A DNA stretch of 64,000 bases from Tateyamaria omphalii (GTDB lineage Bacteria; Pseudomonadota; Alphaproteobacteria; Rhodobacterales; Rhodobacteraceae): the NCBI RefSeq assembly GCF_019802125.1, contig NZ_JAHVHT010000006.1, positions 1 to 64,000 of the forward strand. The letters run 5' to 3'. How positions within the stretch are numbered: the first letter of the stretch is position 1; each line of letters opens with the position of its first letter. The notes beneath the pieces were generated by a model, which ran no database searches, was not told where the DNA came from, and saw nothing but the letters and a program-made list of their open reading frames with translations. The translations under genes were made by a program, and so were the position numbers. Positions 6,634-48,364 of this stretch are shown piece after piece.

Positions 6634-6639
6634 CACCGG

Positions 6640-8687: not shown

Positions 8688-8702
8688 GAATTTCCCGGTC
8701 TG

Positions 8703-8723
8703 CAAGTTTCGCGCAAGGTTCGC
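8703..8723. promoter_or_regulatory. Candidate TctD operator (11-bp direct repeat)
   Basis: CAAGTTTCGC (8703-8712) and CAAGGTTCGC (8714-8723) match at 9 of 10 bases with an 11-base period, the spacing expected for tandem OmpR-type binding. In addition TGCAAGTT at 8701-8708 is inverted as AACTTGCA at 8729-8736. The site lies in the 132-base gap between divergent tctD and tctC. Assignment to TctD is inference. Confidence 0.45.
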
Positions 8724-8819
8724 AGGTCAACTTGCACACATCAACCGGGCACGGACAGCCCGGTCACATGGCTTCGGTCGGCCCGGGGAGGGGACGACCA
8801 GCACATAAGGGAGGAACAT

Positions 8820-9932
8820 ATGTCCACTATCAAAACCACACGTCGTGTGGCCTGTAGCCTCGTGGCTGCGGCAGCCGCGACTTTCGCCGTGCAGGCCAAC
8901 GCAGACGGCCACGGCATCGATCTGCAAGGCAAGACCGTCGAATGGATCATCCCGTTCTCGGAAACCGGCGGCTCGGCCAAATGGGCCAACTTCTATGCAC
9001 CTCTGCTCAGCGAAGCGCTGCCCGGCCAACCCACCGTCGTCGTCAAGTTCATGCCCGGCGCCGGCTCGACCAAAGGTGCCAACTTCTTCCAGGAACAGCA
9101 ATACGCAGACAGCGAAGGCACGCTGATCTTCGGCTCGTCCGGATCCACACAATTCCCGTTCCTGCTGGACGACCCACGGGTCAAATACAATTACGCCGAC
9201 TGGAACGTCGTGCTGGCCTCGGGCACGGGCGGTGTCGCCTACCTGCCGCCGGACATGGCGGCCAAGATGGACGGGCTCGACGCCTCCGGCCTTCAGGGCG
9301 AAGACTTCATCTACGGCTCGCAAGGCGCCACACGGCTCGACCTTGTCCCGCTTCTGGCGTGGGAAATGCTGGGCCTGCAGGTCGAGCCGGTCTTTGGCAT
9401 CAAGGGCCGCGGCGATGGGCGGCTGATGTTCGAGCGGGGCGAAGCCAATATCGACTACCAGACGTCCTCCGGATACCTGTCGGGTGTAGCCCCGCTGGTC
9501 GAAGCAGGCACCGCCGTCCCGATGATGAGCTGGGGCGCGCTGGATGCTGATGGTAACATCGTGCGCGACCCGACCTTCCCCGACATGCCGACATTCAAAG
9601 AGGTGTGCGAGGCAACGGATGGCTGCGAGACGTCGGGTACACAATGGGATGCGTGGAAAGCCTTCTTCATCGCAGGCTTCCCGGCGCAGAAGATGGTGTT
9701 CCTGCCCAACGGCGCCTCGGCAGACGCGATTGCGACCTACACGCAGGCGTTTGAAGCGGTCAAAGCCCGCGCAGACTTTGCCGACATCTCGTCCAAACGT
9801 CTGGGCAAGTACCCGCAAATGACCGGGGCCGAAGCCCAAGGCGCGCTCGAAAGTGGCACCAACGTCCCGCAAGAGGCGAAGGACTTTGTTGTCGGCTGGT
9901 TGGAAGAGCGCTACGGCGTGACGCTCAACTAA
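8820..9932 (+). CDS. tctC: Tripartite tricarboxylate transporter substrate-binding protein
   Basis: A 370-residue periplasmic binding protein of the TctC/Bug family. It captures a carboxylate in the periplasm and delivers it to the TctAB permease. The Sec signal peptide is residues 1-28 (hydrophobic core VACSLVAAAAATFAVQA, cleavage near NADG). The mature part opens GKTVEWIIPFSETGGSAKWANF, with the family's substrate-loop pattern, and later KFMPGAGSTKGANFF. The start is fixed by AAGGGAGG seven bases upstream of ATG 8820; the frame runs far upstream but only as a shadow of tctD. It is longer than typical Bug proteins (about 300-330 residues). Confidence 0.9.
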   Translation: MSTIKTTRRVACSLVAAAAATFAVQANADGHGIDLQGKTVEWIIPFSETGGSAKWANFYAPLLSEALPGQPTVVVKFMPGAGSTKGANFFQEQQYADSEGTLIFGSSGSTQFPFLLDDPRVKYNYADWNVVLASGTGGVAYLPPDMAAKMDGLDASGLQGEDFIYGSQGATRLDLVPLLAWEMLGLQVEPVFGIKGRGDGRLMFERGEANIDYQTSSGYLSGVAPLVEAGTAVPMMSWGALDADGNIVRDPTFPDMPTFKEVCEATDGCETSGTQWDAWKAFFIAGFPAQKMVFLPNGASADAIATYTQAFEAVKARADFADISSKRLGKYPQMTGAEAQGALESGTNVPQEAKDFVVGWLEERYGVTLN

Positions 9933-9948
9933 GCCCTGCTGTCTGACT

Positions 9949-9972
9949 GCCCTGTCCCCGCGGGGACAGGGC
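9949..9972. other. Perfect 24-bp palindrome between tctC and tctA
   Basis: GCCCTGTCCCCG (9949-9960) is followed at once by its exact reverse complement (9961-9972). No T-run follows, so a simple terminator is unlikely. Placed between a binding-protein gene and its permease gene, it probably blocks 3' decay or attenuates, giving more TctC than TctAB. That role is inferred. Confidence 0.6.
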
Positions 9973-10000
9973 GCTTTACCGGGTAAGGCAGAGACATCTC

Positions 10001-12028
10001 ATGGACATTCTGGCAACGGCTCTCCCCGCGCTCGGGCAAGCGTGGGCCCTCATCCTGCAACCTGTCGTGCTGGGCTATCTGGTGCTGGGCGTGGTCATGG
10101 GGCTGTGCATCGGCGTCTTTCCCGGCCTTGGGGGCATCGCGGGGCTGTCACTGCTCCTGCCCTTCATGTTCGGCATGGACCCGATCCTGGGCCTCGCGCT
10201 GATGATCGGCATGGTGGCTGTCGTGCCTACCTCCGACACGTTCGCCTCGGTCCTCATGGGCATCCCCGGATCCTCTGCATCCCAAGCCACCGTGCTGGAT
10301 GGCTTTCCCCTCGCAAAGAAGGGCCAAGCCGCCCGCGCCCTCTCCGCTGCCTTCGCCTCATCCCTCTTCGGCGGCCTTGTCGGCGCGAGTTTCCTCACGA
10401 TCTTCATCCTGATCGCCCGCCCCATCGTACTGGAATTCCGCACGCCTGAACTGCTGATGATCACCATCTTCGGCCTGTCGATGGTCGGCATCCTCGCCGG
10501 TCGGGTGGCAATCAAGGGGCTGGTCGCCGCAGGGCTCGGGATGCTGATCGGCACCATTGGCGAGGGCGCCTCGTCAGGTGATCTGCGCATGTCGTCCTAC
10601 GACTACCCCTACCTTACCGACGGTCTGAAACTGGTGATCGTGGGCCTCGGCATCTTCGCCATCCCCGAGATCATCTCGCTCCTTCGCCAGGACCGCGCCA
10701 TCGCCAAGGAACAATCCCTGGGCGGTGGCTGGCTCGACGGGGTGCGCGACTGGTTTGCAAACATCTGGCTGTCGGTCCGCTGCTCAATCATCGGGGTGGT
10801 GGTCGGCGTGATCCCCGGCCTCGGCGGCTCGGTCGTCGACTGGATCGCCTACGGTCACTCTGTGCAATCGACCAAGGACAAGTCGAACTTCGGCAAGGGC
10901 GAAGTGCGCGGCGTGATCGGCCCCGAAAGCTCGAACAACGCGAAAGAAGGTGGCGGACTGGTCCCCACCCTCCTGTTCGGCATCCCCGGGTCCGGCTCCA
11001 TGGCGATCTTCATCGGTGCCATCGCCCTTCTGGGTTCCGGCCAGATTGAGGTCGGCCCGGCCGTGCTGAAAAACAACCTCGACATCACCTATTCGATCGT
11101 ATGGCTGCTGGCACTTGCCAATGTGGTTGGCACCATCATCTGCATCGCGGCCTCGAACGGCATCGCCAAGCTCACGACAATCCGCTTCGCGCTCCTCGCC
11201 CCGTTCCTCTTCATGATCATCAGTTTCGCGGCCTTCCAGTCAGGCCAGAACCTGATGGACCTCGTCGCCCTCTTCGCCATCGGCTTCCTGGGCATCCTCA
11301 TGCGCCGCTTCGACTGGTCGCGGCCTGCCTTCCTGATCGGCTTCGTGCTCAGCAATCCAGCCGAAACATACGCCAACCAAGCCCTGCAAATCGCCCAATC
11401 CCGCTTCCGCCGCAGTATGGAAGAAGGGCTCGACTACATCTTTTCCCCCATCGTGATCGTACTGATCATCATCACGGTCCTGTCGGTGGTCATCGGCCTG
11501 CGCCAATCGAAAAACATCATGGCCGAGGGCGATGTGCAGTCCGGTTCAAAACGCGCGCCGTTCCTCTTCCTGATCGCAATCACCGCCTACATCGCTTACG
11601 CCCTCTACGACGCCGCCTCGATCCCAAGCTTCAGCCGCGACCGCACCTTCCCAATGTTCGTCGCGGGCGTCTGCCTCGCGGGCTGCGTGATCCTGATCAT
11701 CCGCATGATGTTGCGCCCGGAGACCGACACGATCTTCGCCGACCGCGAGAGCGACGGCGAAGATGCCGACGCCACCCATGGCCTTTGGCCCACCCTCGCA
11801 TGGTTCGCCGCCCTTCTAGTCCTGACGTCCCTCCTCGGTTTCATCCTCGCCCTCGCCCTTTTTCTCTTTGCCTTCCTCAAGATCCGGGCGGGTCTGAGCA
11901 ACGCCATGGCCGCCGCCTACACCACCGCAGGCATCGCCTTCATGTGCCTGATGGCAGGCCTCCTGAACCGCGACTTCCCGCCCGGCCTGCTGCAAGGCTA
12001 CGCCGACCTGCCCTGGCCGCTCACATGA
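10001..12028 (+). CDS. tctA: TctA-TctB fusion permease of a tripartite tricarboxylate transporter
   Basis: A 675-residue inner-membrane protein. Residues 1 to about 505 are TctA. They include GVVMGLCIGVFPGLGG, LMIGMVAVVPTSDTFASVLM and the second-repeat GVIPGLGGSVVDWIAYGH, and they contain about twelve helices. After a charged linker, residues about 515-675 form a TctB-like four-helix part (PFLFLIAITAYIAYALYDA ... LLGFILALALFLFAFLKI). TctA and TctB are usually separate genes; here a single frame carries both and no separate tctB is present. It imports the tricarboxylate captured by TctC, driven by an ion gradient in known systems. The stop overlaps the next start (ATGA, 12025-12028). Confidence 0.9.
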   Translation: MDILATALPALGQAWALILQPVVLGYLVLGVVMGLCIGVFPGLGGIAGLSLLLPFMFGMDPILGLALMIGMVAVVPTSDTFASVLMGIPGSSASQATVLDGFPLAKKGQAARALSAAFASSLFGGLVGASFLTIFILIARPIVLEFRTPELLMITIFGLSMVGILAGRVAIKGLVAAGLGMLIGTIGEGASSGDLRMSSYDYPYLTDGLKLVIVGLGIFAIPEIISLLRQDRAIAKEQSLGGGWLDGVRDWFANIWLSVRCSIIGVVVGVIPGLGGSVVDWIAYGHSVQSTKDKSNFGKGEVRGVIGPESSNNAKEGGGLVPTLLFGIPGSGSMAIFIGAIALLGSGQIEVGPAVLKNNLDITYSIVWLLALANVVGTIICIAASNGIAKLTTIRFALLAPFLFMIISFAAFQSGQNLMDLVALFAIGFLGILMRRFDWSRPAFLIGFVLSNPAETYANQALQIAQSRFRRSMEEGLDYIFSPIVIVLIIITVLSVVIGLRQSKNIMAEGDVQSGSKRAPFLFLIAITAYIAYALYDAASIPSFSRDRTFPMFVAGVCLAGCVILIIRMMLRPETDTIFADRESDGEDADATHGLWPTLAWFAALLVLTSLLGFILALALFLFAFLKIRAGLSNAMAAAYTTAGIAFMCLMAGLLNRDFPPGLLQGYADLPWPLT

Positions 12029-13110
12029 CACAGACGGCGATCCCATACCTGTTCATGCGGGGCGGTACGTCGCGCGGGCCGTACCTGAACCGCGCTGACC
12101 TGCCCGAAGACCTCGACACGCTGGCCCAAGTCCTGATCGCCATGCTCGGCTCGGGCCATCCACTTAATATCGACGGCATCGGCGGTGGCGCAGCAGTCAC
12201 AACCAAGGTCGCCATGCTCTCGCGCTCAGACGACGACTGGGCCGACATCGACTATTTCTTCGCCCAGGTCAGCGTCGAAGACTGCCTGGTCGATTTCAAA
12301 CCCACTTGCGGCAACATCCTGTCCGGCGTCGGCCCAGCGGCGATCGAAATGGGTCTGACCTCGGCACAAGAGGGTGAGACACGCATCAATATCCGCGCCG
12401 TCAACACAGGCGCACGAGTCAGCGCGACCGTCCAGACACCGGACAGGCAAGTCGCCTACGCAGGCGAGGCCCACATCGATGGCGTCCCGCACACAGCCGC
12501 ACCCGTTGCGCTGCAATTCATGGACACTGTCGGCGGCGCAACCGGAGCCTTCCTGCCCACCGGTAACCTGATCGACGAGATCGACGGCATCCAAGTCACA
12601 TGCATGGACGTTGCCATGCCCATGGTCATCGCCCGCGCCTCGGACTTCGGGCTAACCGGTTACGAAAGCGCTGCAGAACTGGACGACAACACAGAATTCT
12701 TCGCGCGGATGGAGGCTGTGCGGCTCAAGGCCGGCGCACTCATGGGCATGGGCGACGTATCGAAGTCGGTCACCCCAAAATTCGGCGTGGTCGCCCCGGC
12801 CCGCAACGGCGGAACCGTCGCAACCCGCTACTTCATGCCGTGGAAAACGCATCCGACCATGGCTGTCACCGGCGCACAGTGCCTGGCCTCCTGTGTGCTG
12901 ACACCGGGCACGGTGGCCGACGCTCCCACCCCGAACGAACGCCCGGCAACGATCACACTCGAACACGCATCGGGCCAGATCGAGGTGCTGGTCGACTACG
13001 ACCCAACCGGCAACGGGATCACGATCAACTCGGCCGGACTGGTGCGCACCGCCCGCAAACTGGCCGCCGGACACGTCTTTATTCCGGCTTCGATCTGGGA
13101 CGGGAATTGA
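12025..13110 (+). CDS. PrpF/GalD-family isomerase (aconitate or oxalomesaconate isomerase-like)
   Basis: A 361-residue cytoplasmic enzyme of the PrpF / 4-oxalomesaconate tautomerase family. Family features are the N-terminal IPYLFMRGGTSRGPYL, the lysine in GGGAAVTTKVAML and the cysteine in KPTCGNILSGVGPAAIE. In this family the Cys/Lys pair moves a proton to shift a double bond in an unsaturated tricarboxylate. ATG 12025 overlaps the tctA stop, so the genes are coupled; the longer frame upstream is a shadow of tctA. With TctABC and a TcuA-like enzyme downstream, an aconitate or related isomerase is more likely than gallate catabolism. This is inference. Confidence 0.85.
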   Translation: MTQTAIPYLFMRGGTSRGPYLNRADLPEDLDTLAQVLIAMLGSGHPLNIDGIGGGAAVTTKVAMLSRSDDDWADIDYFFAQVSVEDCLVDFKPTCGNILSGVGPAAIEMGLTSAQEGETRINIRAVNTGARVSATVQTPDRQVAYAGEAHIDGVPHTAAPVALQFMDTVGGATGAFLPTGNLIDEIDGIQVTCMDVAMPMVIARASDFGLTGYESAAELDDNTEFFARMEAVRLKAGALMGMGDVSKSVTPKFGVVAPARNGGTVATRYFMPWKTHPTMAVTGAQCLASCVLTPGTVADAPTPNERPATITLEHASGQIEVLVDYDPTGNGITINSAGLVRTARKLAAGHVFIPASIWDGN

Positions 13111-13122
13111 CCTTTGCCTCAA

Positions 13123-13144
13123 ATTGTATACACCTGGATACAAT
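13123..13144. promoter_or_regulatory. Inverted repeat before the small ORF, GntR-like operator
   Basis: ATTGTAT (13123-13129) and ATACAAT (13138-13144) form a perfect 7-base inverted repeat around 8 bases, ending just before the GGAGG ribosome site of the next gene. The TTGTATAC-type half-site resembles sites of FCD-class GntR regulators. It marks a possible internal promoter or operator in the operon. No GntR gene is in the window. Confidence 0.4.
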
Positions 13145-13158
13145 ATTGGAGGTACACC

Positions 13159-13398
13159 ATGCCCGACACGTTCGAAGACTGCGTCCTCGCCGCACGCGCG
13201 GAACTGGCCATGGCCCGGCAACTGCTGCGGGACGAGATTTCCACCTACCCAAGCCCCATCGCGGGCTGTGACGCCCAATTCAATCACCTGCTGGCCGCGC
13301 GGCAAAAGGTGCTGACAGCGATCCGGTCGCTGGATGACAGCGTGTTCGTGCCCACGCCGCGCACCCCGACGCCCGAGGCCGGTATCGAAAGCCGATGA
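13159..13398 (+). CDS. Small hypothetical protein in the tricarboxylate operon
   Basis: A 79-residue soluble protein that I do not recognise. It is mostly helical in appearance (residues 1-60, VLAARAELAMARQLLRDEI and HLLAARQKVLTAIRSLDD) with a proline-rich tail VPTPRTPTPEAG. The start is fixed by GGAGGT eight bases upstream of ATG 13159; the frame runs back to 13114 across the inverted repeat. Its stop overlaps the next gene's start by 4 bases. Helical hairpin plus tail suggests a binding or accessory protein, but no function can be assigned. Confidence 0.7.
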   Translation: MPDTFEDCVLAARAELAMARQLLRDEISTYPSPIAGCDAQFNHLLAARQKVLTAIRSLDDSVFVPTPRTPTPEAGIESR

Positions 13399-14369
13399 AG
13401 GTCCACATCCTCGACGACTGGTTCAACACGCTGCGCAGCCTGCCCTGCTTCCACAAGCTGGCCGCACACAACGTCACCGTATGGACCGATCACGAACCCG
13501 ACCCGGCCGCCCTAGCCCAGCGCGTACGGGAGGCCGAAGCACTTGTCCTCTTCCGCGAGCGCACAAAAATCACCGCAGACCTTCTTGACCGCCTCCCAAA
13601 CCTGAAACTCATCTCCCAGCGCAGCGTCTATCCCCATATCGACGTCGACGCCTGCACCCGCACCGGCGTGCTCCTATGCTCCAACATGCACGCGGGCACG
13701 CCCTCCTACGCCGCCGCCGAACACACGCTTGCCCTGATACTCGCGAGCTACCGGCAAATCCCGGAACAGGTGGCATCGATCCGAAGCGGCAATTGGCAAT
13801 CCGGCGTTGGGCGTACCCTGCGCGGGCGTAAACTCGGGCTCTATGGCTACGGGCGCATCGCCCAAGCCGTCGCGGGCTACGCCAAGGCCATGGGCCTGCA
13901 GGTGCAATGGTGGGCCTCGGACGATGGCCGCGCCCGCGCGCAGGCAGATGGCGAAACCGTCGCCCCCTCCCGCGAAGCCTTCTTTGCCACTTCCGACATC
14001 GTTAGCCTCCATGTCAGGCTCAAGCCAACAACGCGCGGCATCATCACCGCAGACGACCTCGCCGCCATGACCCCGCGCAGCCTCTTCGTGAACACCTCTC
14101 GCGCAGGCCTCGTCGCCCCCGGCGCGCTTGAAGCTGAAATCGCACGCCAGCGCATCTTTGCAGCCATCGACGTCTTCGACACCGAACCGCTGACGGACAC
14201 CGCCCATCCGCTGCTCACAGCCCCCAACGTCCTGCCGACACCCCACATCGGCTATGTCACCGAGGACGAGTTCGACCTGCAATTCTCCGACATCTTCGAC
14301 CAGGTCAACGCCTACGCCAGTGGCACCCCCATCCACATGATCAACCCCGAGGTTTGGACCACCCCATGA
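13395..14369 (+). CDS. D-isomer-specific 2-hydroxyacid dehydrogenase
   Basis: A 324-residue cytoplasmic NAD(P)-dependent oxidoreductase of the D-2-hydroxyacid dehydrogenase family. The nucleotide-binding loop is KLGLYGYGRIAQAVAGYAKAMG near residues 145-166. The catalytic triad is visible as R in FVNTSRAGLV, E in DVFDTEPL and H in LPTPHIGYVT. It resembles the phosphoglycerate dehydrogenase-like subgroup rather than lactate dehydrogenase. Overlaps of 4 bases on both sides (ATGA type) place it inside the tct operon, where it may oxidise or reduce a 2-hydroxy acid made from the imported tricarboxylate. Substrate unknown. Confidence 0.88.
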   Translation: MKVHILDDWFNTLRSLPCFHKLAAHNVTVWTDHEPDPAALAQRVREAEALVLFRERTKITADLLDRLPNLKLISQRSVYPHIDVDACTRTGVLLCSNMHAGTPSYAAAEHTLALILASYRQIPEQVASIRSGNWQSGVGRTLRGRKLGLYGYGRIAQAVAGYAKAMGLQVQWWASDDGRARAQADGETVAPSREAFFATSDIVSLHVRLKPTTRGIITADDLAAMTPRSLFVNTSRAGLVAPGALEAEIARQRIFAAIDVFDTEPLTDTAHPLLTAPNVLPTPHIGYVTEDEFDLQFSDIFDQVNAYASGTPIHMINPEVWTTP

Positions 14370-15835
14370 CCCACATCATCATCGCCGGCTCCGGCAACGC
14401 CGCCCTCTGCGCCGGCATCGCAGCCCTCGAAAAAGGGGCCACCGTCCTGATGCTGGAAAAAGCGGACGAGGCCCTCGCAGGCGGCAACACCAAATACACC
14501 GCAGGCGCCATGCGCTTTGCCTACGAGGATGGGGCGGACCTGATCCCACTTCTGAATGACCCCAACGATCCCCGTCTGCCCCACACTGATTTCGGCAGCT
14601 ACACCCAAGACAAGTTCGGCACCGACCTTCTCGGCTTCAACGACGGCCGCCCGCTCAGCCCCGAACAGCAAACCCTGATCTCGGAAAGCTACGAAACACT
14701 CAAATGGCTCGGTAGCCACGACGTCAAATTCGAGCCGATCTATTCCCGCCAGAGCTTTGAAAAGGATGGCCGCCACGTCTTCTGGGGTGGCCTGACGCTC
14801 GCAGCAGAAAACGAAGGCGTCGGCCTCTTCGACCAGGAACTCGCCTCTTTCAAGCGACTGGGCGGAGAGATCCGCTACAACACCGCCGTTGCAGACCTGA
14901 TCACCGACAAGGGCCGCGTCACCGGCGTCATAACCGATGCAGGCGACCGCATCCCTGCCGATGCCGTCATCCTCGCCTGCGGAGGGTTCGAGGCGAACGC
15001 GGACCTGCGCCAGCGCCATATCGGCACCGACTGGGACAAGGCCAAGGTGCGCGGCACGCCTCACAACACCGGCGACGGGCTCGTGATGGCAACCAAACTT
15101 GGCGCGCAGGAATACGGGTTCTTCGGCGGCTGCCACGCCACGCCCATGGACCTGCACATGGCCGAGTATGGCAATCTCGACATCCCCCCGGGTGAGCGCA
15201 AGAACTACCGCAAGATCTGCTACTTCCTCGGCGTCATGCTCAACGCAAACGGCCAGCGCTTCGTCGATGAAGGGATCAATTTCCGCAACTACACCTACGC
15301 CCAGTTCGGCGCGGCGATCATGGAGCAGCCGGGCCACTTCGCCTGGCAGATCTTTGACGCCAAGGTGCTGGGCTTGCTCTACGGCGAATACCACTTCCAC
15401 GACGCGCATTATGTCGAGGCCGACACGCTCGACGCACTGATCCCGATGCTGGACGGGGTCGATCACGCGCAGGCGGCCCAAACGCTCGATGCCTACAACG
15501 CCGCCGTGGACGACAGCACGGTCTTCGATCCGACCATTCTGGACGGTAAGGCCACCCAAGGGCTGCCTCTGGCCAAATCCAATTGGGCGCAGCGGCTGGA
15601 TCAGGGGCCCTTCCGCGCCTACCCGGTCACGGGCGGGATCACCTTCACCTATGGTGGTCTCAAGGTGAACCAGACAGGTGCCGTGCTGACCGAAACCGAC
15701 GCGCCCATCCCCGGCCTCTACGCCTGCGGCGAGTTGGTGGGCGGTGTGTTCTTCAACGGCTACCCTGGCGGTTCCGGCCTTACCTCCGGCGCCGTGTTCG
15801 GACGACGCGCGGGCTACGGCGCCGCCTCGGCCTAG
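14366..15835 (+). CDS. tcuA: FAD-dependent tricarballylate dehydrogenase-like protein (TcuA family)
   Basis: A 489-residue flavoprotein of the fumarate reductase / succinate dehydrogenase flavoprotein superfamily, closest in appearance to TcuA, which oxidises tricarballylate to cis-aconitate. The FAD loop is HIIIAGSGNAALCAGIAALEKG at residues 3-24, with GGNTKYTAGAMRFAY after it. The family C-terminus is YACGELVGGVFFNGYPGGSGLTSGAVFGRRAG. ATG 14366 overlaps the previous stop; an earlier in-frame ATG at 14354 would add four residues. TcuB, its usual electron-transfer partner, is not in the window. Last gene of the operon; its stop lies in the same CTAG as the lacI stop. Confidence 0.85.
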   Translation: MTHIIIAGSGNAALCAGIAALEKGATVLMLEKADEALAGGNTKYTAGAMRFAYEDGADLIPLLNDPNDPRLPHTDFGSYTQDKFGTDLLGFNDGRPLSPEQQTLISESYETLKWLGSHDVKFEPIYSRQSFEKDGRHVFWGGLTLAAENEGVGLFDQELASFKRLGGEIRYNTAVADLITDKGRVTGVITDAGDRIPADAVILACGGFEANADLRQRHIGTDWDKAKVRGTPHNTGDGLVMATKLGAQEYGFFGGCHATPMDLHMAEYGNLDIPPGERKNYRKICYFLGVMLNANGQRFVDEGINFRNYTYAQFGAAIMEQPGHFAWQIFDAKVLGLLYGEYHFHDAHYVEADTLDALIPMLDGVDHAQAAQTLDAYNAAVDDSTVFDPTILDGKATQGLPLAKSNWAQRLDQGPFRAYPVTGGITFTYGGLKVNQTGAVLTETDAPIPGLYACGELVGGVFFNGYPGGSGLTSGAVFGRRAGYGAASA

Positions 15836-16833
15836 GTCAGGTCGGCTACAGAGCCGCGCTCGATAATCTGCGCCGTCAGCAACTCGTTTTGCAGCGGCGC
15901 GCCATCCTCAAGGTACGCCACGATCCGATGCGCCACCATCTCGCCCATACCAACGGCGGGCAGGTCGATGGTGGTCAGCGGTGGCACGATGTCCCGCGAC
16001 CAATCAAGGTTGTCGAAGCCCATGACAGACACGTCTTGCGGGATGCGTTTGCCCGCTTCGGCACAAGCGAAATACGCGCCCAGCGCCAGCACGTCGGTCG
16101 AACACAAGTAAGCGGTGAAATCGCGCGGATCCTCAAGCGCGGCACTGACACAAGCCTTGCCACCCGCAACGTCCAAGGGCGCCTCAAAAAACGCCAGATG
16201 CTCGAACCGGTCGCTCACCGACATCGCACCGGCGCGGCGGGCACGGGTCCGGTCGCTTTCGGCCAACGGCCCATGCACAACAGCGACCCGCCGATGCCCA
16301 TGATCCGCCAAATGATGCATGGCCCGCTCGGCAAGCAGCGCATTGTCATAGCCGATGGTGGGCCGCGCACTGCGCGCGTCCCAGGCTGACGTAAACACGT
16401 AAGGCACCGCACGACGTTCCAGCATGTCGAGCAGCAGGTCACTGTGATCCAGCCCGCTCAGGATCAGCGCATCGGCCCCCATGCCCAACAGCTTGCGGGC
16501 CGCGGCCAGCTCCTCTGTCTCGTCCGCATTGGAAATGGCCATGATCAACGAATACCCACGCTCCCCCAAAGCCCGCTCGATGGCGGCGATGAACTTGGCA
16601 AAGACCGAATGCTCGATGGTCGGGATGATAGCCGCCACCGCCTTGGACCGGCGGGTCGACAGGGCACGCGCCGCTGGGTTTGGCAGATAGTCCAGCCGCG
16701 CACAGGCCTCCAGCACCCGCGCCCTTGTCTTTTCGCTGACCTTTCTGCCGCCATTGACCACGCGCGAGATCGTCGCCGTGGACAAGCCCGTTTCGCGGGC
16801 AACATCGCGGATACTGACGCCAATCTTGTTCAC
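15832..16833 (-). CDS. LacI-family transcriptional repressor
   Basis: A 333-residue repressor. The N-terminal helix-turn-helix and hinge read IRDVARETGLSTATISRVVNGGRKVSEKTRARVLEA and LDYLPNPAARALSTRRS. A periplasmic-binding-protein-like sensor follows, with the usual VMGFDNLDWSRDIVPPLTTIDLP segment near the end. It is divergent from the DUF1989-GcvT gene, and a perfect palindrome with a central CG lies between them at 16890-16903. It therefore very likely represses that operon and itself, responding to the imported substrate. It ends tail to tail with tcuA, sharing the CTAG at 15832-15835. Confidence 0.93.
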   Translation of the reverse strand: MNKIGVSIRDVARETGLSTATISRVVNGGRKVSEKTRARVLEACARLDYLPNPAARALSTRRSKAVAAIIPTIEHSVFAKFIAAIERALGERGYSLIMAISNADETEELAAARKLLGMGADALILSGLDHSDLLLDMLERRAVPYVFTSAWDARSARPTIGYDNALLAERAMHHLADHGHRRVAVVHGPLAESDRTRARRAGAMSVSDRFEHLAFFEAPLDVAGGKACVSAALEDPRDFTAYLCSTDVLALGAYFACAEAGKRIPQDVSVMGFDNLDWSRDIVPPLTTIDLPAVGMGEMVAHRIVAYLEDGAPLQNELLTAQIIERGSVADLT

Positions 16834-16889: not shown

Positions 16890-16903
16890 TGTAACCGGTT
16901 ACA
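16890..16903. promoter_or_regulatory. Palindromic LacI-type operator
   Basis: TGTAACCGGTTACA is a perfect 14-base palindrome with the central CG typical of LacI/GalR operators. It lies 57 bases upstream of the lacI start and 47 bases upstream of the probable GTG start of the fusion enzyme. It also overlaps the far-upstream alternative start of that frame (16881), which argues against using it. Confidence 0.8.
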
Positions 16904-16949: not shown

Positions 16950-19274
16950 GTGTTACAACGCAGCGACAGCTTTGCGCCACAACGGGTGCGGTACCGGGGT
17001 CTCAAGGACACGTCGACCCTGCGCCGCGACGTGCGGTATGGAGGTATGGACCGGGTCCACGTTCGGGCCGGTTCAGTCATCTCCATCACCGCGACCGACG
17101 GCGGATGCGACGTCTGGCTCACCGCGCTGCCGGACGCTGCAAGAGACTTCGGTGTCAGCGCATTCGAAGGAGTAACCGGCACAGGCGACGCGCTGCCCAA
17201 ATCCGGCTACGACACCCGCGCGCTGAAAGCCATCGCGCAAGGACGCGACACCGCGCTCTCCGAAGCGCGGGCGCTGCACATCTTCACCACCGACGACGCG
17301 CCAGGCGAAACCCATATCGGCAAGGTCACGCAGGACGCTGACCTGTTCTGCATCCTGCCCGCCCAAAAAGGCTTCATCGAAACCGGCGCGGGCGGCAGCG
17401 TGACACTGACCGTCCAGCCACCTGCAGGCGACGGTTTCGAGCTCACCCTGCCCGAGCCGCTGGGCCACGTGGTCGACGAATGGCGCGTAAATCGCGGCAC
17501 CGCGCACGCCTACACGCTCAAAAAGGGACAATTCGTCCAGATCATCGACGTCGAAGGGCAGCAATGCTCCGACTTCATGGCGATGCGGGCGGACGCGCTT
17601 GATCAGGGCACCGAACGCTACATCGACAGCACTGTTTCGCGCACCATGGCGCGCGGCGCCTACCCCACGCCCGGCCTGCACGACAAGTTCTTTGACCAAG
17701 ACATGGTGCCCCTTCTGGCACTCCGCCAAGACACGGTTGGCCGCCACGACACCTTCGCGCTCGCCTGCACCGCCCGCGGGTACGAAGAACGCGGCTTTCC
17801 CGGCCACATCAACTGCTCCGACAACATCTCGGGCGCCTTCGCCCCCTACGGCATCGGCAACCGCCGCGCATGGCCTGCGATCAACTTCTTCTTCAACTCG
17901 TGGATCGACTGGCAGAACCACCACATCGCCGCGGACGAGGCGTGGTCCCGCCCCGGCGATCACGTGACGATGCAGGCGCTCACCGACCTCGTCTGCGTCT
18001 CCACCGCCTGTCCCGACGACGTGGACCCGATCAATGGATGGAACCCAACGGATGTCCACGTGCGCATCTACGACGAAAACAGCCGGATACAGCACGCCGT
18101 CGCATGGCGCGCCAACCCCGAGGACGCAGCGCAAATGACCGCCCACTCCGCCTTCCATCCGCGCATCTCAAAACTGACAAGCAGCTACCAGGTCGCGCGG
18201 CAGCTTTGGATGCCCACGCAATACGACGCCACGGGGGCCATCGCCGAATACTGGGCCTGCAAGAACGCCGCCACGCTGCAGGACATGTCGGGCCTGCGCA
18301 AGTTCGACATCATCGGCCCGGACGCCGAGGAACTCCTGCAAATCTGCCTGACGCGCAACGCAGCCAGACTGTCCCAACATCGCGGCTTCTACGCCCTGAT
18401 CTGCGACGCACGCGGGTCGGTGCTGGACGACGGCACGCTCTTCCGGCTCGAAGACACGGCCTTCCGCTGGTGCTGCGGCTCGGACAACTCGGGCCTGCAC
18501 CTGCGCGAACAGGCAGCGGCCCACGGGTTGAACGTCCGGGTGCTCAGCTACGGCGACAAGATCCAGAACCTCGCCCTTCAGGGCCCCAAGTCCCGAGATA
18601 TCTTGCGCAAGATCGTCTTCACGCAGCCCTCGCGCCCGTCCCTCGACAACCTCAAATGGTTCGGCTTCACCATCGCCCGGCTGCACGACCGCGACGGGCC
18701 GATGTTCATGCTCTGCCGCACGGGCTTCACCGGGGAACTCGGCTACGAACTCTTCTGCGACAGCGCCGACGCGGTTACCATCTGGGACGCGCTCATGGAG
18801 GCTGGCGCACCCGACGGGCTGGTGCCCATGGGCGGCAACGCACTGGAAATGCTGCGGATCGAAGCGGGGCTGATGATCTCGGGCGCCGAATTCGGTCCCG
18901 AAGCGGACGCCTTTGAATCCGGCCTCGGCTTTGCCGTCGATCTGAAAAAGGAAAACTTCATCGGGCGCACCGCCCTTGAACGCAACAACACGGCACCACG
19001 GCGCAAGCTCGTGGGCCTGCACATGGCCGGCAATGAGGTGCCCGTCCATGGCGATGGCATCTTTGTGGGACGCGAGCAGGTGGGCACGATCACCAGTGCC
19101 TGCCACTCCCCCGCACTCGGACATGCAATCTGCATGGCCCGGGTCGCCGTCGAAAACGCCGCACCCGGCACGGAACTGGAAGTGGGCAAACTGGACGGAC
19201 ATATGAAGCGCCTCGGCGCAACGCTTGTCGATCTGCCCTTCCTCGACCCAAAAAGAGAAAAGGCACGCGCTTGA
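16950..19274 (+). CDS. DUF1989-GcvT fusion enzyme
   Basis: A 774-residue cytoplasmic protein from GTG 16950 (CAGGGA upstream). Residues about 1-170 look like a degenerate copy of the next domain. Residues about 180-375 are DUF1989 (urea-carboxylase-associated family), with GQQCSDF (Cys206), GHINCSDN (His286, Cys289) and GWNPTDVHVRIYD as likely metal or active-site motifs. Residues about 415-774 are a GcvT/DmdA-type folate-dependent aminomethyltransferase (YALICDARGSVLDDGTLFRL, ALQGPKSRDILRKIV, RTGFTGELGYELFC). Some DUF1989 proteins act as carboxyguanidine deiminases; GcvT domains move one-carbon units to tetrahydrofolate. It is coupled to ProVWX (TTGA overlap), so the substrate is probably an imported N-methylated compound. 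Exact reaction unknown. Confidence 0.85.
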   Translation: MLQRSDSFAPQRVRYRGLKDTSTLRRDVRYGGMDRVHVRAGSVISITATDGGCDVWLTALPDAARDFGVSAFEGVTGTGDALPKSGYDTRALKAIAQGRDTALSEARALHIFTTDDAPGETHIGKVTQDADLFCILPAQKGFIETGAGGSVTLTVQPPAGDGFELTLPEPLGHVVDEWRVNRGTAHAYTLKKGQFVQIIDVEGQQCSDFMAMRADALDQGTERYIDSTVSRTMARGAYPTPGLHDKFFDQDMVPLLALRQDTVGRHDTFALACTARGYEERGFPGHINCSDNISGAFAPYGIGNRRAWPAINFFFNSWIDWQNHHIAADEAWSRPGDHVTMQALTDLVCVSTACPDDVDPINGWNPTDVHVRIYDENSRIQHAVAWRANPEDAAQMTAHSAFHPRISKLTSSYQVARQLWMPTQYDATGAIAEYWACKNAATLQDMSGLRKFDIIGPDAEELLQICLTRNAARLSQHRGFYALICDARGSVLDDGTLFRLEDTAFRWCCGSDNSGLHLREQAAAHGLNVRVLSYGDKIQNLALQGPKSRDILRKIVFTQPSRPSLDNLKWFGFTIARLHDRDGPMFMLCRTGFTGELGYELFCDSADAVTIWDALMEAGAPDGLVPMGGNALEMLRIEAGLMISGAEFGPEADAFESGLGFAVDLKKENFIGRTALERNNTAPRRKLVGLHMAGNEVPVHGDGIFVGREQVGTITSACHSPALGHAICMARVAVENAAPGTELEVGKLDGHMKRLGATLVDLPFLDPKREKARA

Positions 19275-20329
19275 ACGACAACAGGGAAGAAGGGGTGGTC
19301 GTCACCCGCAACGTTTGGAAAATCTTTGGCAGCCGCGCAGACGAAGCGATGGAAGCCGTCCGCAGGGACAACCTGTCCAAGGCCGAGGTGCTGGAGCAAT
19401 TCGGCGCCGTCGTGGGGGTCAAGGATGTCTCGATCTCCGTCGGTGAGGGCGAGATTTTCTGCATCATGGGCCTCTCGGGCTCGGGCAAATCCACCCTCGT
19501 GCGGCACATCAACCGCCTGATCGAACCCACGGGTGGCGACATCCTGATCAACGGGGCCAATGTTGGCCAACTCAACGCCGAAGAGCTTCGCGCCATGCGC
19601 GCCGACAAGATCGGCATGGTGTTCCAGAACATGGCGCTCTTGCCCCACCGCACGGTGCGCGACAACGTCGCCCTGTCGCTGGAGCTGCGCAACGTCGACG
19701 CCTACACCCGCGCGCAAGTCGCCGACCGCGTGATCGAACTGGTCAGCCTGCAAGGCTACGGCGACCGCCTGCCTTCCGAACTGTCGGGTGGGATGCAGCA
19801 GCGCGTGGGCCTCGCCCGCGCCATGGCCGCCGACCCGGACATCCTCTTGATGGACGAACCCTTCTCGGCCCTCGACCCGCTGATCCGGCGGGTGCTTCAG
19901 GACGAATTCCTCGACCTGTCGAAGTCGATGAACAAGACCACGCTCTTCATCACCCACGACCTGGATGAGGCGATCCGCATGGGCAACCGCATCGCCATCA
20001 TGAAGGATGGCGAGATCGTGCAAGTGGGCACACCCGAAGACATCGTGACCAAGCCCGCTGACGACTACGTGGCGGACTTCGTGGCTGGCATCTCCAAGCT
20101 GAAGCTGCTCTATGCACACACAGTCATGGAACCGCTCGAAGCCTACGAACAACGCAAGGGACCCATCCCGCAGGCCGAGGCCCCCGTGGCCGAACCCGAC
20201 GACGACCTCGACAAGCTGATCGCGCTCAGCGTCAACCAGGACCACCCGGTGCTGATCAAGTCGGACGGCAACGTCGTGGGCGTGGTGTCCAAAGATGCAA
20301 TCCTGCACGGCGTCCAGGGGGAGGCGTAA
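19271..20329 (+). CDS. proV: Betaine/proline-type ABC transporter ATP-binding protein
   Basis: A 352-residue ATPase of the ProV/OpuAA group that powers uptake of quaternary amines. Walker A GLSGSGKST is at residues 67-75, followed by the Q-loop (GMVFQNMALLPHRTV), signature LSGGMQQR, Walker B ILLMDEPFSALDP and the H-loop FITHDLDEA. A single short CBS-like region at the end (LIKSDGNVVGVVSKDAILHG) replaces the longer tandem CBS pair of ProV. It starts at TTG 19271, overlapping the fusion-enzyme stop by 4 bases. Cytoplasmic face of the inner membrane, partner of the next gene. Confidence 0.92.
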   Translation: MNDNREEGVVVTRNVWKIFGSRADEAMEAVRRDNLSKAEVLEQFGAVVGVKDVSISVGEGEIFCIMGLSGSGKSTLVRHINRLIEPTGGDILINGANVGQLNAEELRAMRADKIGMVFQNMALLPHRTVRDNVALSLELRNVDAYTRAQVADRVIELVSLQGYGDRLPSELSGGMQQRVGLARAMAADPDILLMDEPFSALDPLIRRVLQDEFLDLSKSMNKTTLFITHDLDEAIRMGNRIAIMKDGEIVQVGTPEDIVTKPADDYVADFVAGISKLKLLYAHTVMEPLEAYEQRKGPIPQAEAPVAEPDDDLDKLIALSVNQDHPVLIKSDGNVVGVVSKDAILHGVQGEA

Positions 20330-20330
20330 C

Positions 20331-21917
20331 ATGACCGACACAACACCCGATCAAATGGGCGGCGCACCTGCTGCCGCCACGGACGAAACCAAACCCTTCG
20401 TCGAGTTCGCCGACAAATCCGGCGGCTACTTTGCCGAAACCTTCCTCTCCATCCAAAAGGCCAAGCTGCCCGCCACCCACGTCAACTGGATGGCGGCCAT
20501 CGCGGGCTTCCCATGGGCCGCCCTGCGCGCCAACAAGATGCTGTTCTGGATCGGCTTCCTGATCGACCTCGTGGCAGCGGTCTATCTCATGCAGGTCTGG
20601 AAGTTCTCCCGCGCCGCCGAACAGGCGGTCATCGACAACAAGGATTTCCTGGTCGAACGGTTCGAAAACTGGACCACGTCCAGCCTCTGGGCCGCCGTGA
20701 TCATCTTCATCCTCGGTCGCGTCATCTTCGGTTGGCTCGCCGACCGGCTCTACTTCCGCCAGTACAACACCTGGCGCGTCGACCATTCCAAACCCTCCGG
20801 TTGGGACATGAAACGGCTCGTCTGGGCGACACTGATCGTAGCTATGATCGCGCCCCTCATGCTCTACCGCGCCTCGCAATTCCCGCCCGAAGAACGGACC
20901 TGCATCAAACAGGCCCGCTCCATCGCCGCGGGCGAAGAGGTCGCGTTCAAGGACCAGTTCGACTGCATGATCATCGGGGAATTCCCCACCATCGTCTGGC
21001 TGGAACGGCGCGACACGGTCACCTACCCCCGCGACGACAACGGCGACCGCTTTGTGCGCCGCGAAGCCCCGCGTGAGGGTCTGCCACCGGTCAACCTCAA
21101 CAGCTACACGGCCCAGCTCATCGATGACGGCATCGGCTACCTGACGGCGTTCTATGGCTTCTTCTTCGACGGGATCACGACCTTCCTGCGGTCGATGCTG
21201 TCGGCCATCACGGCGGTCTTCGTGGGCACGCCATGGATCATCGCCATGGGGGCGATCATGGCGATCAGTTACACGATGGCCGGGGCCCGAATAACCATAT
21301 TCGTGGCCGCATCGCTCTGTTACCTCGCCCTCTTCGGCTTCTGGCAAACAGCGATGGACACGATGAGCCTCGTGGTCGCGGCCTCGATCATCTGCATCGT
21401 CTTCGGCCTGCCCCTGGGCATATGGGTCGGCAAATCGAAACGGGGGCAAGCGATCATCACGCCCATCCTCGACATCATGCAGACGATCCCGTCCTTCGTG
21501 TATCTGCTGCCTGCGGTCGCCTTCTTCTCGATCGGCAAACCGCCGGGCATTCTGGCCACAGTGATCTTCGCCATGCCCCCCATGGTGCGTCTCACGGCCC
21601 TCGGCATCCGCCACGTGCCCGAGAACACCAAGGAAGCGGCCCTGGCCTTCGGCGCCAACCCACGGCAACTCTTGATGAAGGTCGAACTGCCCCAGGCCCT
21701 GCCGTCGATCATGGCAGGGGTCAACCAGGTGGTGATGATGGCATTGTCCATGGTCGTCGTGGCCGCGCTGATCGGCGCAGGCGGCATGGGCTTTATCGTG
21801 ACGGAGGCGCTCGCGAACACTCGCACGGGCGCAGGCATCCTGGCCGGCATCGGCATCGCGCTTCTGGCGATGATGATCGACCGCGTGGTCCAGAAGGCCA
21901 ACACCGTCAAACACTAA
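20331..21917 (+). CDS. proW: Betaine/proline-type ABC transporter permease
   Basis: A 528-residue inner-membrane permease of the ProW/OpuAB family, with ATG 20331 next to GGGGGAGG. The N-terminal half (to about residue 300) is longer than in E. coli ProW, with extra helices and a soluble segment around residues 190-250. The C-terminal half carries the binding-protein-dependent transport fold and the EAA loop EAALAFGANPRQLLMKVELPQALPSIMAGV that contacts the ATPase. It follows proV by one base. Roseobacter relatives with this long form exist, but the role of the insertion is not known to me. Confidence 0.92.
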   Translation: MTDTTPDQMGGAPAAATDETKPFVEFADKSGGYFAETFLSIQKAKLPATHVNWMAAIAGFPWAALRANKMLFWIGFLIDLVAAVYLMQVWKFSRAAEQAVIDNKDFLVERFENWTTSSLWAAVIIFILGRVIFGWLADRLYFRQYNTWRVDHSKPSGWDMKRLVWATLIVAMIAPLMLYRASQFPPEERTCIKQARSIAAGEEVAFKDQFDCMIIGEFPTIVWLERRDTVTYPRDDNGDRFVRREAPREGLPPVNLNSYTAQLIDDGIGYLTAFYGFFFDGITTFLRSMLSAITAVFVGTPWIIAMGAIMAISYTMAGARITIFVAASLCYLALFGFWQTAMDTMSLVVAASIICIVFGLPLGIWVGKSKRGQAIITPILDIMQTIPSFVYLLPAVAFFSIGKPPGILATVIFAMPPMVRLTALGIRHVPENTKEAALAFGANPRQLLMKVELPQALPSIMAGVNQVVMMALSMVVVAALIGAGGMGFIVTEALANTRTGAGILAGIGIALLAMMIDRVVQKANTVKH

Positions 21918-21947
21918 CCAAGAATGAGTTCAATAAGGGAGACACAT

Positions 21948-22898
21948 ATGAAACTCATCACAACCCTCACCGCTGCAGGGGCGCTGTCCGTCGCCGCAGT
22001 GGGTGCATCGGCACAGGAAAAGGTCGCCATCTCCGACCTCAACTGGACCGGCGCCAAGGCCATCGCCCACGTGATCAAAACGGTCATCGAAGGGCCGCTG
22101 AACTCCGAAGCCGAAATCGTCGAAGGCCTGTCCGACCAGGCCATCATCGGCGCAGGCATGGACAAGGGCGACGGCTCTGCCGACGTCTGGACCGACATGT
22201 GGATGCCGAACCAGCAAGCGCCCTGGGACAAGTATATCGAAGACGCAGGCACGGTCGCTCACAACCAACCCTATGCCGGCACCCAGCAGATGTACGTGCC
22301 CAGCTACATGTCCGACCAGATCAAGTCCTTCGAGGACCTGAAGGACCCGGCGGTCGCCGCCATGTTCGACAAGGACGGCAACGGCAAGGGCGAATACTGG
22401 GCCGGTGACGCCTCGTGGAAATCCACGAAAATCTGGCAGGTCAAGATGAAGTCCTATGGCCTGTCCGAACTGTGGGAGCCGGAGATTATCTCCGACGCGA
22501 CCTTCAAGGCGCAGCTGAAAACATCCTACGGCAACCAGAAGCCGATCCTGTTCTACTACTGGACGCCCGAATGGATCCACGCCGCCTATGACATCTCGCC
22601 CCTGGCCGAGCCCGAGCACACCGAAGGCTGCATGAACCTGCAGCTCGACGGCGAAGATTGGCTGGAAGTGTCCGAAGCAGGCTGCAAGACGCCCGACGCG
22701 TCGATCTATGTCAGCTACTCCAAGTCCCTGGAAGAGCGGAACCCGCCCGCGGCCAAGTTCCTGAGCCAGATCCAACTGGACCCGGCAGTCGTGAACGACT
22801 GGATCCTGAAAATCGGTCGGGATGAAATGGACCCGCAGGACGTGGCCGAAGAGTGGGTCGCAGAAAACATGGACATCGTCGAAGGCTGGATCAACTAA
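21948..22898 (+). CDS. proX: Betaine-type ABC transporter substrate-binding protein
   Basis: A 316-residue periplasmic binding protein of the OpuAC/ProX family. Signal peptide residues 1-22 (MKLITTLTAAGALSVAAVGASA) with cleavage before QEK. The mature protein has DLNWTGAKAIAHVIKTVIE, DGSADVWTDMWMPN and FYYWTPEWIHAAYDI. Such aromatic residues build the cation-pi box for quaternary ammonium groups in this family. ATG 21948 follows AAGGGAG. Last gene of the operon, ending at a strong terminator. Confidence 0.92.
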   Translation: MKLITTLTAAGALSVAAVGASAQEKVAISDLNWTGAKAIAHVIKTVIEGPLNSEAEIVEGLSDQAIIGAGMDKGDGSADVWTDMWMPNQQAPWDKYIEDAGTVAHNQPYAGTQQMYVPSYMSDQIKSFEDLKDPAVAAMFDKDGNGKGEYWAGDASWKSTKIWQVKMKSYGLSELWEPEIISDATFKAQLKTSYGNQKPILFYYWTPEWIHAAYDISPLAEPEHTEGCMNLQLDGEDWLEVSEAGCKTPDASIYVSYSKSLEERNPPAAKFLSQIQLDPAVVNDWILKIGRDEMDPQDVAEEWVAENMDIVEGWIN

Positions 22899-22977: not shown

Positions 22978-24876
22978 TCACCACGTCAACGCAGCCGTCG
23001 GCACATTCCACACCCACGCGACAACCAAAACCCATCCAAAGCACGCAACAGCCGCCAGCGTTGCACCTCGTTCGCCGAGTGGTATCCGTGTCGCCGGGAC
23101 AACTGACCTCGCTATTGCCCAAACCAGCGCAAGCGCGATGGCCACGCACAGACCTGTTGCAATCCACAAGTCATCGCCTGGTGACGCCTGACTGGACAGA
23201 TCACGACCACTGATGATCGGGGTGATGATGACGTAACACCCCGGGACCCCGATCAACCCGACCGCACCAAGCCACGTGGCTGCTCCGATAATACTCCGCC
23301 GGGCACGCCAGGCGAGTGCAATCCCGATCATGCAGAAAAGCACACCACCGACCGTCGCCCATAGTGCGGAATCCAAAGACACACCGCTGTGCCAAAAACC
23401 GACGCGGTCAAATGTTTGCATACCACCGTTCAAATTTGCGCCCACGACACGGCCCGCCGCGTCGCGTATGAACCCAAGCGGCACGTCGCCTTCGGCCGTT
23501 TCGAACTGATCAGTCCCTATGGGTTCAAACCGCAACGGATAGCCCAACCCAGAGACAAGAAGCGCACCGTTATCAGTCGCAGACACATCAAAAGCATGGG
23601 TGTTCAGCACATGCAGCCTGTCCAAACCAGAGGTGTTGCGGCGCGTCATCATGTAACGGCCTTCCATCTCTTGTAAGCAGACGTCATCGCACGCGATGCG
23701 CTCCGCAACAGGACGTGTATCTGGGGAAATCACTTCTCGCAGCACGCGGCGCGGAAGTGCCGCCAACGCTGAACCGCCAGGGCTGTTGGCCGCAACGAAA
23801 AAGCCGAGATCAAGCTCGGGAACAAGCACCATGTTGGTGTGGAACCCGAAATGCGATCCGGCATGATGGTACACTTCATGTCCAGCCCAAGTTTCGGACC
23901 AGAGACCCTTGGTCCGCGATGTGAACCCGGGACGATCTGGCCACATCGGCGCGTACAGGTCGGCAACGGCAGTTGAACCTGCCCCATCAACAGCGGTGTC
24001 TCCCAACAGAAGCTGCATCACGCGGCCCATGTTTTCAGCGCTTAGCGCCAAGCCGCCCGAAGCCGTGTGCGGCTGTGGAAACGGCGTGGGGTCAACGCCG
24101 ACATATTGCCCGGCATTCCACACATGAAACGGGCTCGCGCCATTCTGATCCTTGGGCATGTGCATGGCACGCAGATCGTAGACACCGTGCGGCGCGAGCA
24201 TTTCAGCGATGTAGTCGGTCAGGGGCGTACCAGCGACCTGGGCCACGATTTCACCAAGCAGGACATAGCTGGCGTTTGAATAGGCGATGACGTCTTCCGG
24301 CGGACGCACCTGGCGCGGCAAAATTGCGGAAATATGGTCAATGGCATTTTCAGCGCCGATGGCCTCAGGCGTCGTGAAATACCCCGCGTACCGTTCCTCA
24401 AGACCGGCCGTATGACTTAACAAATGACGCACCCGGACCTCACCAAACCGCTGGTCCAGCTTGAGCCCCGGCAAGTGCTGCGCAATCGGATCATCAAGCG
24501 TCAACCGCCCTTCACGCTCCAACTGCAGAATTGCCCAAGCCGTAAAAACCTTGGAAATGGACGCAAGTGGGATCACATCCTGTTCCGGGGACATCAATCG
24601 CCCGGTGCGCGCATCCCCCAGCCTGTAACCCCGCGACAAGATCACGTCGTCCCCAGAGACGACAACGACAACCGCGCCAGCGACAGCATCCTGATCCAGG
24701 CCGGTTGTCACAACACCGTCGACAAACCCGCTCAACTCTGCCTGCCACTGATCATCCGATGGCACCTCACCCGCGGCCAAAGACGCAGTAACCACCCATG
24801 ACAGTGCAGCAAAAACGACGAACAGCCCCAGTACAACGTTCCGAAATGGGCGCAAAAATGTGCTTGATGTGGTCAA
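22978..24876 (-). CDS. Beta-lactamase-fold serine hydrolase with C-terminal membrane domain
   Basis: A 632-residue protein of the class C beta-lactamase / CubicO family. TTG 24876 was chosen because AAGGAG lies nine bases upstream and the signal anchor VVLGLFVVFAALSWVVTASLAAG follows directly; the frame stays open to 24948. The catalytic SxxK motif is SISK in VIPLASISKVFTAW and the Tyr motif is YSN in DVIAYSNASYVLLGEIV. About 380 residues of periplasmic hydrolase are followed by a linker domain and roughly four membrane helices in the last 150 residues. Members are esterases, peptidases or D-aminopeptidases; substrate unknown. Single gene, convergent with proX. Confidence 0.85.
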   Translation of the reverse strand: MTTSSTFLRPFRNVVLGLFVVFAALSWVVTASLAAGEVPSDDQWQAELSGFVDGVVTTGLDQDAVAGAVVVVVSGDDVILSRGYRLGDARTGRLMSPEQDVIPLASISKVFTAWAILQLEREGRLTLDDPIAQHLPGLKLDQRFGEVRVRHLLSHTAGLEERYAGYFTTPEAIGAENAIDHISAILPRQVRPPEDVIAYSNASYVLLGEIVAQVAGTPLTDYIAEMLAPHGVYDLRAMHMPKDQNGASPFHVWNAGQYVGVDPTPFPQPHTASGGLALSAENMGRVMQLLLGDTAVDGAGSTAVADLYAPMWPDRPGFTSRTKGLWSETWAGHEVYHHAGSHFGFHTNMVLVPELDLGFFVAANSPGGSALAALPRRVLREVISPDTRPVAERIACDDVCLQEMEGRYMMTRRNTSGLDRLHVLNTHAFDVSATDNGALLVSGLGYPLRFEPIGTDQFETAEGDVPLGFIRDAAGRVVGANLNGGMQTFDRVGFWHSGVSLDSALWATVGGVLFCMIGIALAWRARRSIIGAATWLGAVGLIGVPGCYVIITPIISGRDLSSQASPGDDLWIATGLCVAIALALVWAIARSVVPATRIPLGERGATLAAVACFGWVLVVAWVWNVPTAALTW

Positions 24877-24976
24877 CGCAAATGGCTCCTTGCAACGAAA
24901 AGTAGAAATGACTTGGAGCACATGTTTGGGTCGCGACCAGCCATTCAAGCAGGCCGCGAACGTTTTTTCTGTCCAG

Positions 24977-43344: not shown

Positions 43345-43381
43345 GGATCTTTCGTCTTTCACGTGTTGCTTTGACTTTATT

Positions 43382-43418
43382 TGTTACAAAATTTGTTTTC
43401 AACAAATTTCCGGTAACA
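43382..43418. promoter_or_regulatory. Nested palindrome in the thiolase promoter, candidate PaaX operator
   Basis: The inner arms AAATTTGTT (43389-43397) and AACAAATTT (43401-43409) flank TTC. The outer arms TGTTAC (43382-43387) and GTAACA (43413-43418) extend the symmetry to 37 bases. It sits 38 bases in front of the thiolase start and directly downstream of paaX, in an AT-rich gap. Binding by the adjacent PaaX-type regulator is inference. Confidence 0.55.
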
Positions 43419-43460
43419 TATTGTGGGATGGATTGCTCATTTCAGTTATTTCGTCCTTGT

Positions 43461-44186: not shown

Positions 44187-44265
44187 GTCGGGCACAAGAA
44201 AAACCTGATTTGCCAATAGGGTCTTGGCGCCAGCATAGGCACCGGACACATCTGGGCAAGCAGGG

Positions 44266-46305
<2,040 letters not shown>

Positions 46306-46325
46306 TGGGGCGTCCTTCTTTTGGA

Positions 46326-48338: not shown

Positions 48339-48364
48339 CAGCGGCATTCTCCAGCAATTCTATA

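Follow-up and report, generated by a model that had tools for sequence, protein, structure and literature searches.

Within a 64,000-nucleotide stretch of Tateyamaria omphalii DNA (positions 1 to 64,000 of contig NZ_JAHVHT010000006.1; hereafter, the window), we analysed an operon at positions 16,950 to 22,898 whose first gene encodes a DUF1989 domain fused to a GcvT domain. The operon encodes a demethylase of the trimethylamine N-oxide (TMAO) demethylase (Tdm) type, belonging to a sister clade of the canonical enzymes, together with an ATP-binding cassette (ABC) importer and a regulator of its own; the substrate of the enzyme may be a methylated compound related to TMAO but different from it.

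The fusion protein has the architecture and metal site of Tdm

Domain scores were judged against Pfam's own cut-offs and NCBIfam models against their curated cut-offs. The fusion protein contained DUF1989 (137 bits, residues 180-348), GCV_T (186 bits, residues 407-662) and the C-terminal barrel GCV_T_C (69 bits, residues 685-766), all above cut-off, confirming the 774-residue DUF1989-GcvT fusion proposed in a preliminary description made from the sequence alone. Its top NCBIfam model was that of TMAO demethylase (NF053776), matched over nearly its full length at 1058 bits, below the curated cut-off of 1100 bits, and its top matches in the PDB, 9q59 (646 bits) and 9q5a (638 bits), are both TMAO demethylases. 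In domain order and size the fusion corresponds to Tdm (about 760-800 aa), to which it is ~43% identical. The pathway, which the preliminary description could not name, can thus be related to that of TMAO demethylase, though the protein lies outside the canonical clade.

According to passages of the report on the Methylocella silvestris enzyme (PMC12560246), Tdm begins with a DUF1989-like N-terminal domain, followed by a DUF1989 domain and one of the GcvT type. The DUF1989 domain holds a Zn/Fe site, with C263, C279 and C343 as the Zn ligands and H276 and D346 at the Fe site, to which earlier work assigned D198; the products are dimethylamine and formaldehyde, and no tetrahydrofolate (THF) is required. 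These six residues were identical in 32 of 32 canonical proteins and in 38 of 38 proteins of the window's type, and they were kept in each of 34 further proteins. Residues 24-156 of the fusion model, where a DUF1989-like N-terminal domain could lie, were rich in beta structure and for the most part predicted with confidence. To the extent that sequence reveals it, the fusion works like a Tdm, and homology suggests that it would catalyze a demethylation.

The fusion belongs to a clade separate from canonical Tdm

A tree of 70 proteins divided along one branch (support 100) into 32 canonical proteins, including M. silvestris Tdm (clade A), and 38 others, including the window protein (clade B). 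A second tree of 104 proteins retained this split with support 100, placing one of the 34 added proteins in clade B and 33 in clade A. Since the fusion fell outside the clade of M. silvestris Tdm in both trees, it is, judged by its phylogenetic placement, not a canonical Tdm. The clades differed at 24 positions, each conserved at 90% or more within each clade. At 16 of these, none of the 33 further clade-A proteins carried the window's residue, and between one and six of them did so at each of the remaining eight; the single newly added clade-B protein carried it at 23 of the 24. Several of the diagnostic changes are neighbours of metal ligands along the chain: Y267 to G, D270 to E, Y273 to F, N284 to S, G297 to A and A350 to I. 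We found no characterised member of clade B.

The same division was seen in genome searches. With the Tdm model, 34 of 149 genomes of the family passed the cut-off at 1114-1236 bits, and a further group of eight lay at 1031-1058 bits; three genomes carried one of each. None of 14 control genomes exceeded the cut-off. Across the phylum, 398 sampled genomes held 24 copies above cut-off and three full-length copies below it, which the tree assigned to clade A (one) and clade B (two, those of the window and of genome G243); by these counts, clade B is the rarer clade. The NF053776 cut-off alone does not separate the clades cleanly, because the protein of genome G475 (1078 bits) falls below it and yet belongs to clade A by tree. 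Genome G173, which holds locus L037, had three full-length fusion copies; one passed the Tdm cut-off, and one of the two that did not was adjoined by a clade-B-type binding protein.

The fusion gene is coupled to a betaine-type ABC importer

The operon and its regulator comprise the following features.

15,832..16,833, minus strand: LacI-family regulator, divergent from the fusion gene (Pfam LacI 57 bits, Peripla_BP_3 91 bits)
16,890..16,903, no strand assigned: palindromic operator-like site TGTAACCGGTTACA, a candidate operator in the lacI/fusion intergenic region
16,950..19,274, plus strand: DUF1989-GcvT fusion of clade B, the sister clade of TMAO demethylase (774 aa and stop codon)
19,271..20,329, plus strand: ABC transporter ATPase, ProV type (TIGR01186 351 bits, cut-off 326.6)
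20,331..21,917, plus strand: ABC transporter permease, ProW type (BPD_transp_1 84 bits)
21,949..22,898, plus strand: periplasmic substrate-binding protein, OpuAC/ProX type (reading frame also open from 21,924)

The genes for the fusion, ATPase, permease and binding protein follow one another on the same strand. The TTG start of the ATPase gene at 19,271 overlaps the TGA stop of the fusion gene (19,272-19,274), and the ATG of the permease gene at 20,331 lies one base past the ATPase stop, so the layout bears out the translational coupling to a betaine-type transporter that the preliminary description had put forward. The binding protein more likely starts at ATG 21,949, which is preceded by GGAG. 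A longer reading frame for the fusion is open from GTG 16,881; a start at or near GTG 16,950 is more plausible because the longer frame would cover the candidate operator.

This type of locus is conserved: the same kind of protein was encoded at 37 other loci, of which 31 (out of 34) came from one scan of a collection and six from further genomes. The importer ATPase gene adjoined the fusion gene in 24 of the 38 loci, the window included, and the binding protein was found in loci L022 and L030 too. At L013 (13,304-14,899), the permease gene beside the clade-B gene was split in two reading frames, reflecting either a broken gene or a sequencing error.

With an OpuAC-type binding protein, a ProW-type permease and a ProV-type ATPase, the transporter is of the betaine type. 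It has family models and fold in common with the onium importers ProVWX, OpuA, ChoXWV and DmpXWV, whereas it scored under the equivalog cut-offs for choline and for E. coli ProV, ProW and ProX. Superfamily and fold are also those of the TMAO importer TmoXVW, from which the window differs in its binding protein: identity to two TmoX-like proteins encoded beside canonical tdm was 23% (326 columns) and 26% (137 columns). Opposite Glu131 of TmoX, the residue that binds the TMAO oxygen (PMC8918994), the window's binding protein had Thr or Gln, depending on which of three alignments, one residue apart and at ~23% identity, was used. Conversely, TmoX Trp55, Trp102 and Trp177, the three tryptophans of the TMAO box, aligned with W41, W93 and W165, which were the same in all 20 clade-B binding proteins compared.

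A sister betaine-type importer was encoded at L155, L156, L157 and L159 (about 6360-14,130), between a pyridoxal phosphate enzyme and an alpha/beta hydrolase. The former passed the cut-off for D-cysteate sulfo-lyase (CuyA) in L155, L157 and L159, where it was annotated, and was recognised by clustering in L156; the hydrolase was annotated in L155. This importer probably serves another solute, perhaps a sulfonate.

A LacI-family regulator and a candidate operator accompany the fusion gene

In 21 of the 38 clade-B loci, the window included, the gene immediately upstream of the fusion was a divergent one of the LacI family, and the palindrome ATGTAACCGGTTACAT or a close variant was present in 18 of these 21 intergenic regions. 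Two further regions (L016 and L079) had a one-mismatch core at the same place, and the palindrome was not seen in that of L074. With as many as two mismatches allowed, the core TGTAACCGGTTACA occurred once in the window, against an expectation of 0.03 from shuffled sequence, and this was the sole site in its own genome at up to one mismatch. Exact matches were found in 12 of 15 genomes, most of which had been picked because their loci showed the palindrome; each had one copy, always at the fusion gene, and a reversed control pattern gave no match. When one mismatch was allowed in ten genomes, nine had sites, 11 of the 12 sites lying at the fusion gene and one elsewhere (G164). Because the reversed pattern also yielded 12 sites in this search, only the position of the sites is telling. 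The regulator looks dedicated to the fusion operon, and it would control expression from the candidate operator.

Gene neighborhoods and co-occurrence with TMAO-pathway genes

In Marinomonas sargassi (L018), the clade-B gene followed genes for electron transfer flavoprotein, PurU, a dimethylglycine-dehydrogenase-like protein, FolD and a helix-turn-helix (HTH)-cupin protein. In an Olavius algarvensis symbiont (L024), it lay with genes for a FolD homologue (identified by clustering), an HTH-cupin protein, glutamate-synthase-like proteins and GmaS. These neighbors fit a C1 product at the formaldehyde level and the catabolism of methylated amines. For comparison, one canonical locus (L080) contained GmaS, FolD, PurU and Tmm (trimethylamine monooxygenase). 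Among the annotated neighbors of the window operon, which are not all of its neighbors, tmm, tmoXVW, dmm and gmaS did not occur.

Co-occurrence searches covered 35 of the 38 clade-B genomes. Tdm scored above cut-off in 17 of them, in addition to G162, where a second copy was cut by the contig end, indicating that clade B does not stand in for clade A. Roseovarius nubinhibens ISM (L014, genome G154) is a strain with both clades. Tmm was above cut-off in 15, of which 13 also had clade-A Tdm (14 counting G162; the exception, G175, is a metagenome-assembled genome). Neither reached its cut-off in 16 genomes, the window's own included, where the best Tmm score was 75 bits against a cut-off of 675. 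GmaS was above cut-off in 27 of the 35 genomes, again including the window's own. From these Tdm and Tmm counts, clade B neither replaces clade A nor needs the trimethylamine route.

Proposed function and its alternatives

We lean towards reading the fusion as a Tdm-type demethylase that releases formaldehyde from an imported solute, a methylated N-oxide or onium compound that is probably not TMAO. The operon and its regulator would form a self-contained catabolic cassette of enzyme, importer and regulator. The LacI-type protein would act as a repressor at the single operator in the region separating its own gene from the operon. In the presence of the inducer, the ABC importer would take up a small methylated onium or N-oxide solute, and the DUF1989 domain, with its Tdm-like Zn/Fe site, would split off one methyl group at the oxidation level of formaldehyde, which the GcvT domain may hand to THF for oxidation by FolD and PurU. 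The catabolism of an N-methylated solute, the likely role given in the preliminary description, is supported, with creatine-like compounds and glycine betaine, its examples, as conceivable substrates.

The main rival, which we regard as distinctly less probable, is that clade B represents a second TMAO demethylase performing the same reaction with another importer and under substrate-specific LacI control instead of that of the methylamine regulators. Tdm, the closest known system (M. silvestris, PDB 9q59; Ruegeria pomeroyi Spo1562; NF053776), shares the architecture and the six metal-site residues with the fusion, is its best NCBIfam and PDB match, and likewise has a betaine-type importer in its gene neighborhood. 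Retention of all six metal-site residues at 43% identity is compatible with TMAO as the substrate. Several further observations weigh against our preferred reading. TmoXVW is itself a betaine-type importer, the window ATPase is 46-51% identical to the ATPases of two canonical tdm clusters, and fold comparison does not set TmoX apart from other binding proteins. The Glu131 assignment is weak because of the low identity of the alignment, and the TmoX of SAR11 has a somewhat different pocket and works with variation. Pathway gaps are no bar to TMAO, because SAR11 uses it without DmmABC. The importer ATPase did not adjoin the fusion gene in 14 of the 38 loci (the contig ends in L016, L026 and L031), and clade-A Tdm was present in 7 of the 12 searched genomes of such loci (8 with the truncated copy), compared with 10 of 23 with the importer, so some clade-B enzymes could be fed by TmoXVW. 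The clade-B gene of L024 adjoins the methylamine gene for GmaS, an arrangement also seen with canonical tdm, and the equal yield of the reversed operator pattern at one mismatch counts on the same side. What speaks against a TMAO isozyme is the score below the curated Tdm cut-off, the separate clade with 24 diagnostic residues, some of them beside metal ligands, the coexistence of both clades in 17 of 35 genomes, a binding protein in which TmoX Glu131 was not seen at ~23% identity, and the absence of Tmm both alongside the fusion and elsewhere in its own genome. The regulator, operator and binding protein also differ from those that go with Tdm. On balance, a substrate other than TMAO appears to be the better reading.

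Two other explanations were weighed. In one, the GcvT domain would transfer a methyl group from a betaine or sulfonium compound to THF, as in DmdA, with DUF1989 being structural. We consider this improbable, as the DUF1989 metal ligands are invariant, passages of PMC12560246 report THF as unnecessary in Tdm, and 36 of 38 clade-B proteins (and 25 of 32 in clade A) have Phe where the E. coli T-protein has Y101. In addition, the C1 genes by the L018 gene are those for FolD and PurU, and a methyl-THF gene was not among the genes annotated beside it. The other, a bifunctional deiminase and demethylase for creatine-like or methylated guanidine compounds, draws on the occurrence of DUF1989 in urea-associated proteins as well, and amidase genes do lie near the clade-B gene in L036 (6947-9545, with an enolase-superfamily gene) and L040 (12,399-16,001, with RidA-like, DUF1028 and LysR genes); these amidases are unaccounted for by a demethylase. 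Nevertheless, the urea-associated models scored far under their cut-offs (TIGR03424, 85 against 285 bits; TIGR03425, 53 against 206), the nearest characterised relatives are demethylases, and no guanidine or urea carboxylase gene was among the annotated flanking genes, which make up part of the flanks. Deamination by DUF1989, suggested in the preliminary description, thus found no support, and we regard this explanation as highly improbable.

Implications for counts of tdm

Methylated solutes such as TMAO matter as sources of nitrogen and carbon in the sea, and surveys of genomes and metagenomes count tdm as one step of the TMAO route. According to passages of one survey (PMC5520151), R. pomeroyi Tdm was used as a BLASTP query with a threshold of e-50. 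Because the window protein scored 596-662 bits by BLASTP against the canonical proteins compared, a set without Spo1562, clade-B proteins would very likely pass this threshold. We see an even chance that the Tdm family is split into two functions, with clade B devoted to demethylating an imported solute other than TMAO, be it a methylated N-oxide, a sulfoxonium or another onium compound, and that published 'tdm' counts based on BLASTP thresholds mix both. We know of no gene for the demethylation of such a solute. If the substrate of clade B does differ, a second route of solute degradation would have been overlooked. The operator and the cultured strains carrying both clades make the question directly testable.

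Other genes in the window

Beside the operon, a minus-strand gene at 22,978-24,948 encodes a serine hydrolase of the beta-lactamase superfamily (PF00144), a family that includes esterases and peptidases as well. Upstream, a separate catabolic cluster on the plus strand (10,001-15,835), convergent with the LacI gene, encodes a TctA/TctB-type transporter, a PrpF/4-oxalomesaconate tautomerase, a 2-hydroxyacid dehydrogenase and a TcuA-like flavoprotein; homologues of its genes were found at only a few clade-B loci, mostly those of close relatives. Finally, minus-strand genes at 42,148-48,347 encode thiolase, aldehyde dehydrogenase-MaoC and 3-hydroxyacyl-CoA dehydrogenase/enoyl-CoA hydratase proteins, which we take to resemble part of a phenylacetate degradation operon.
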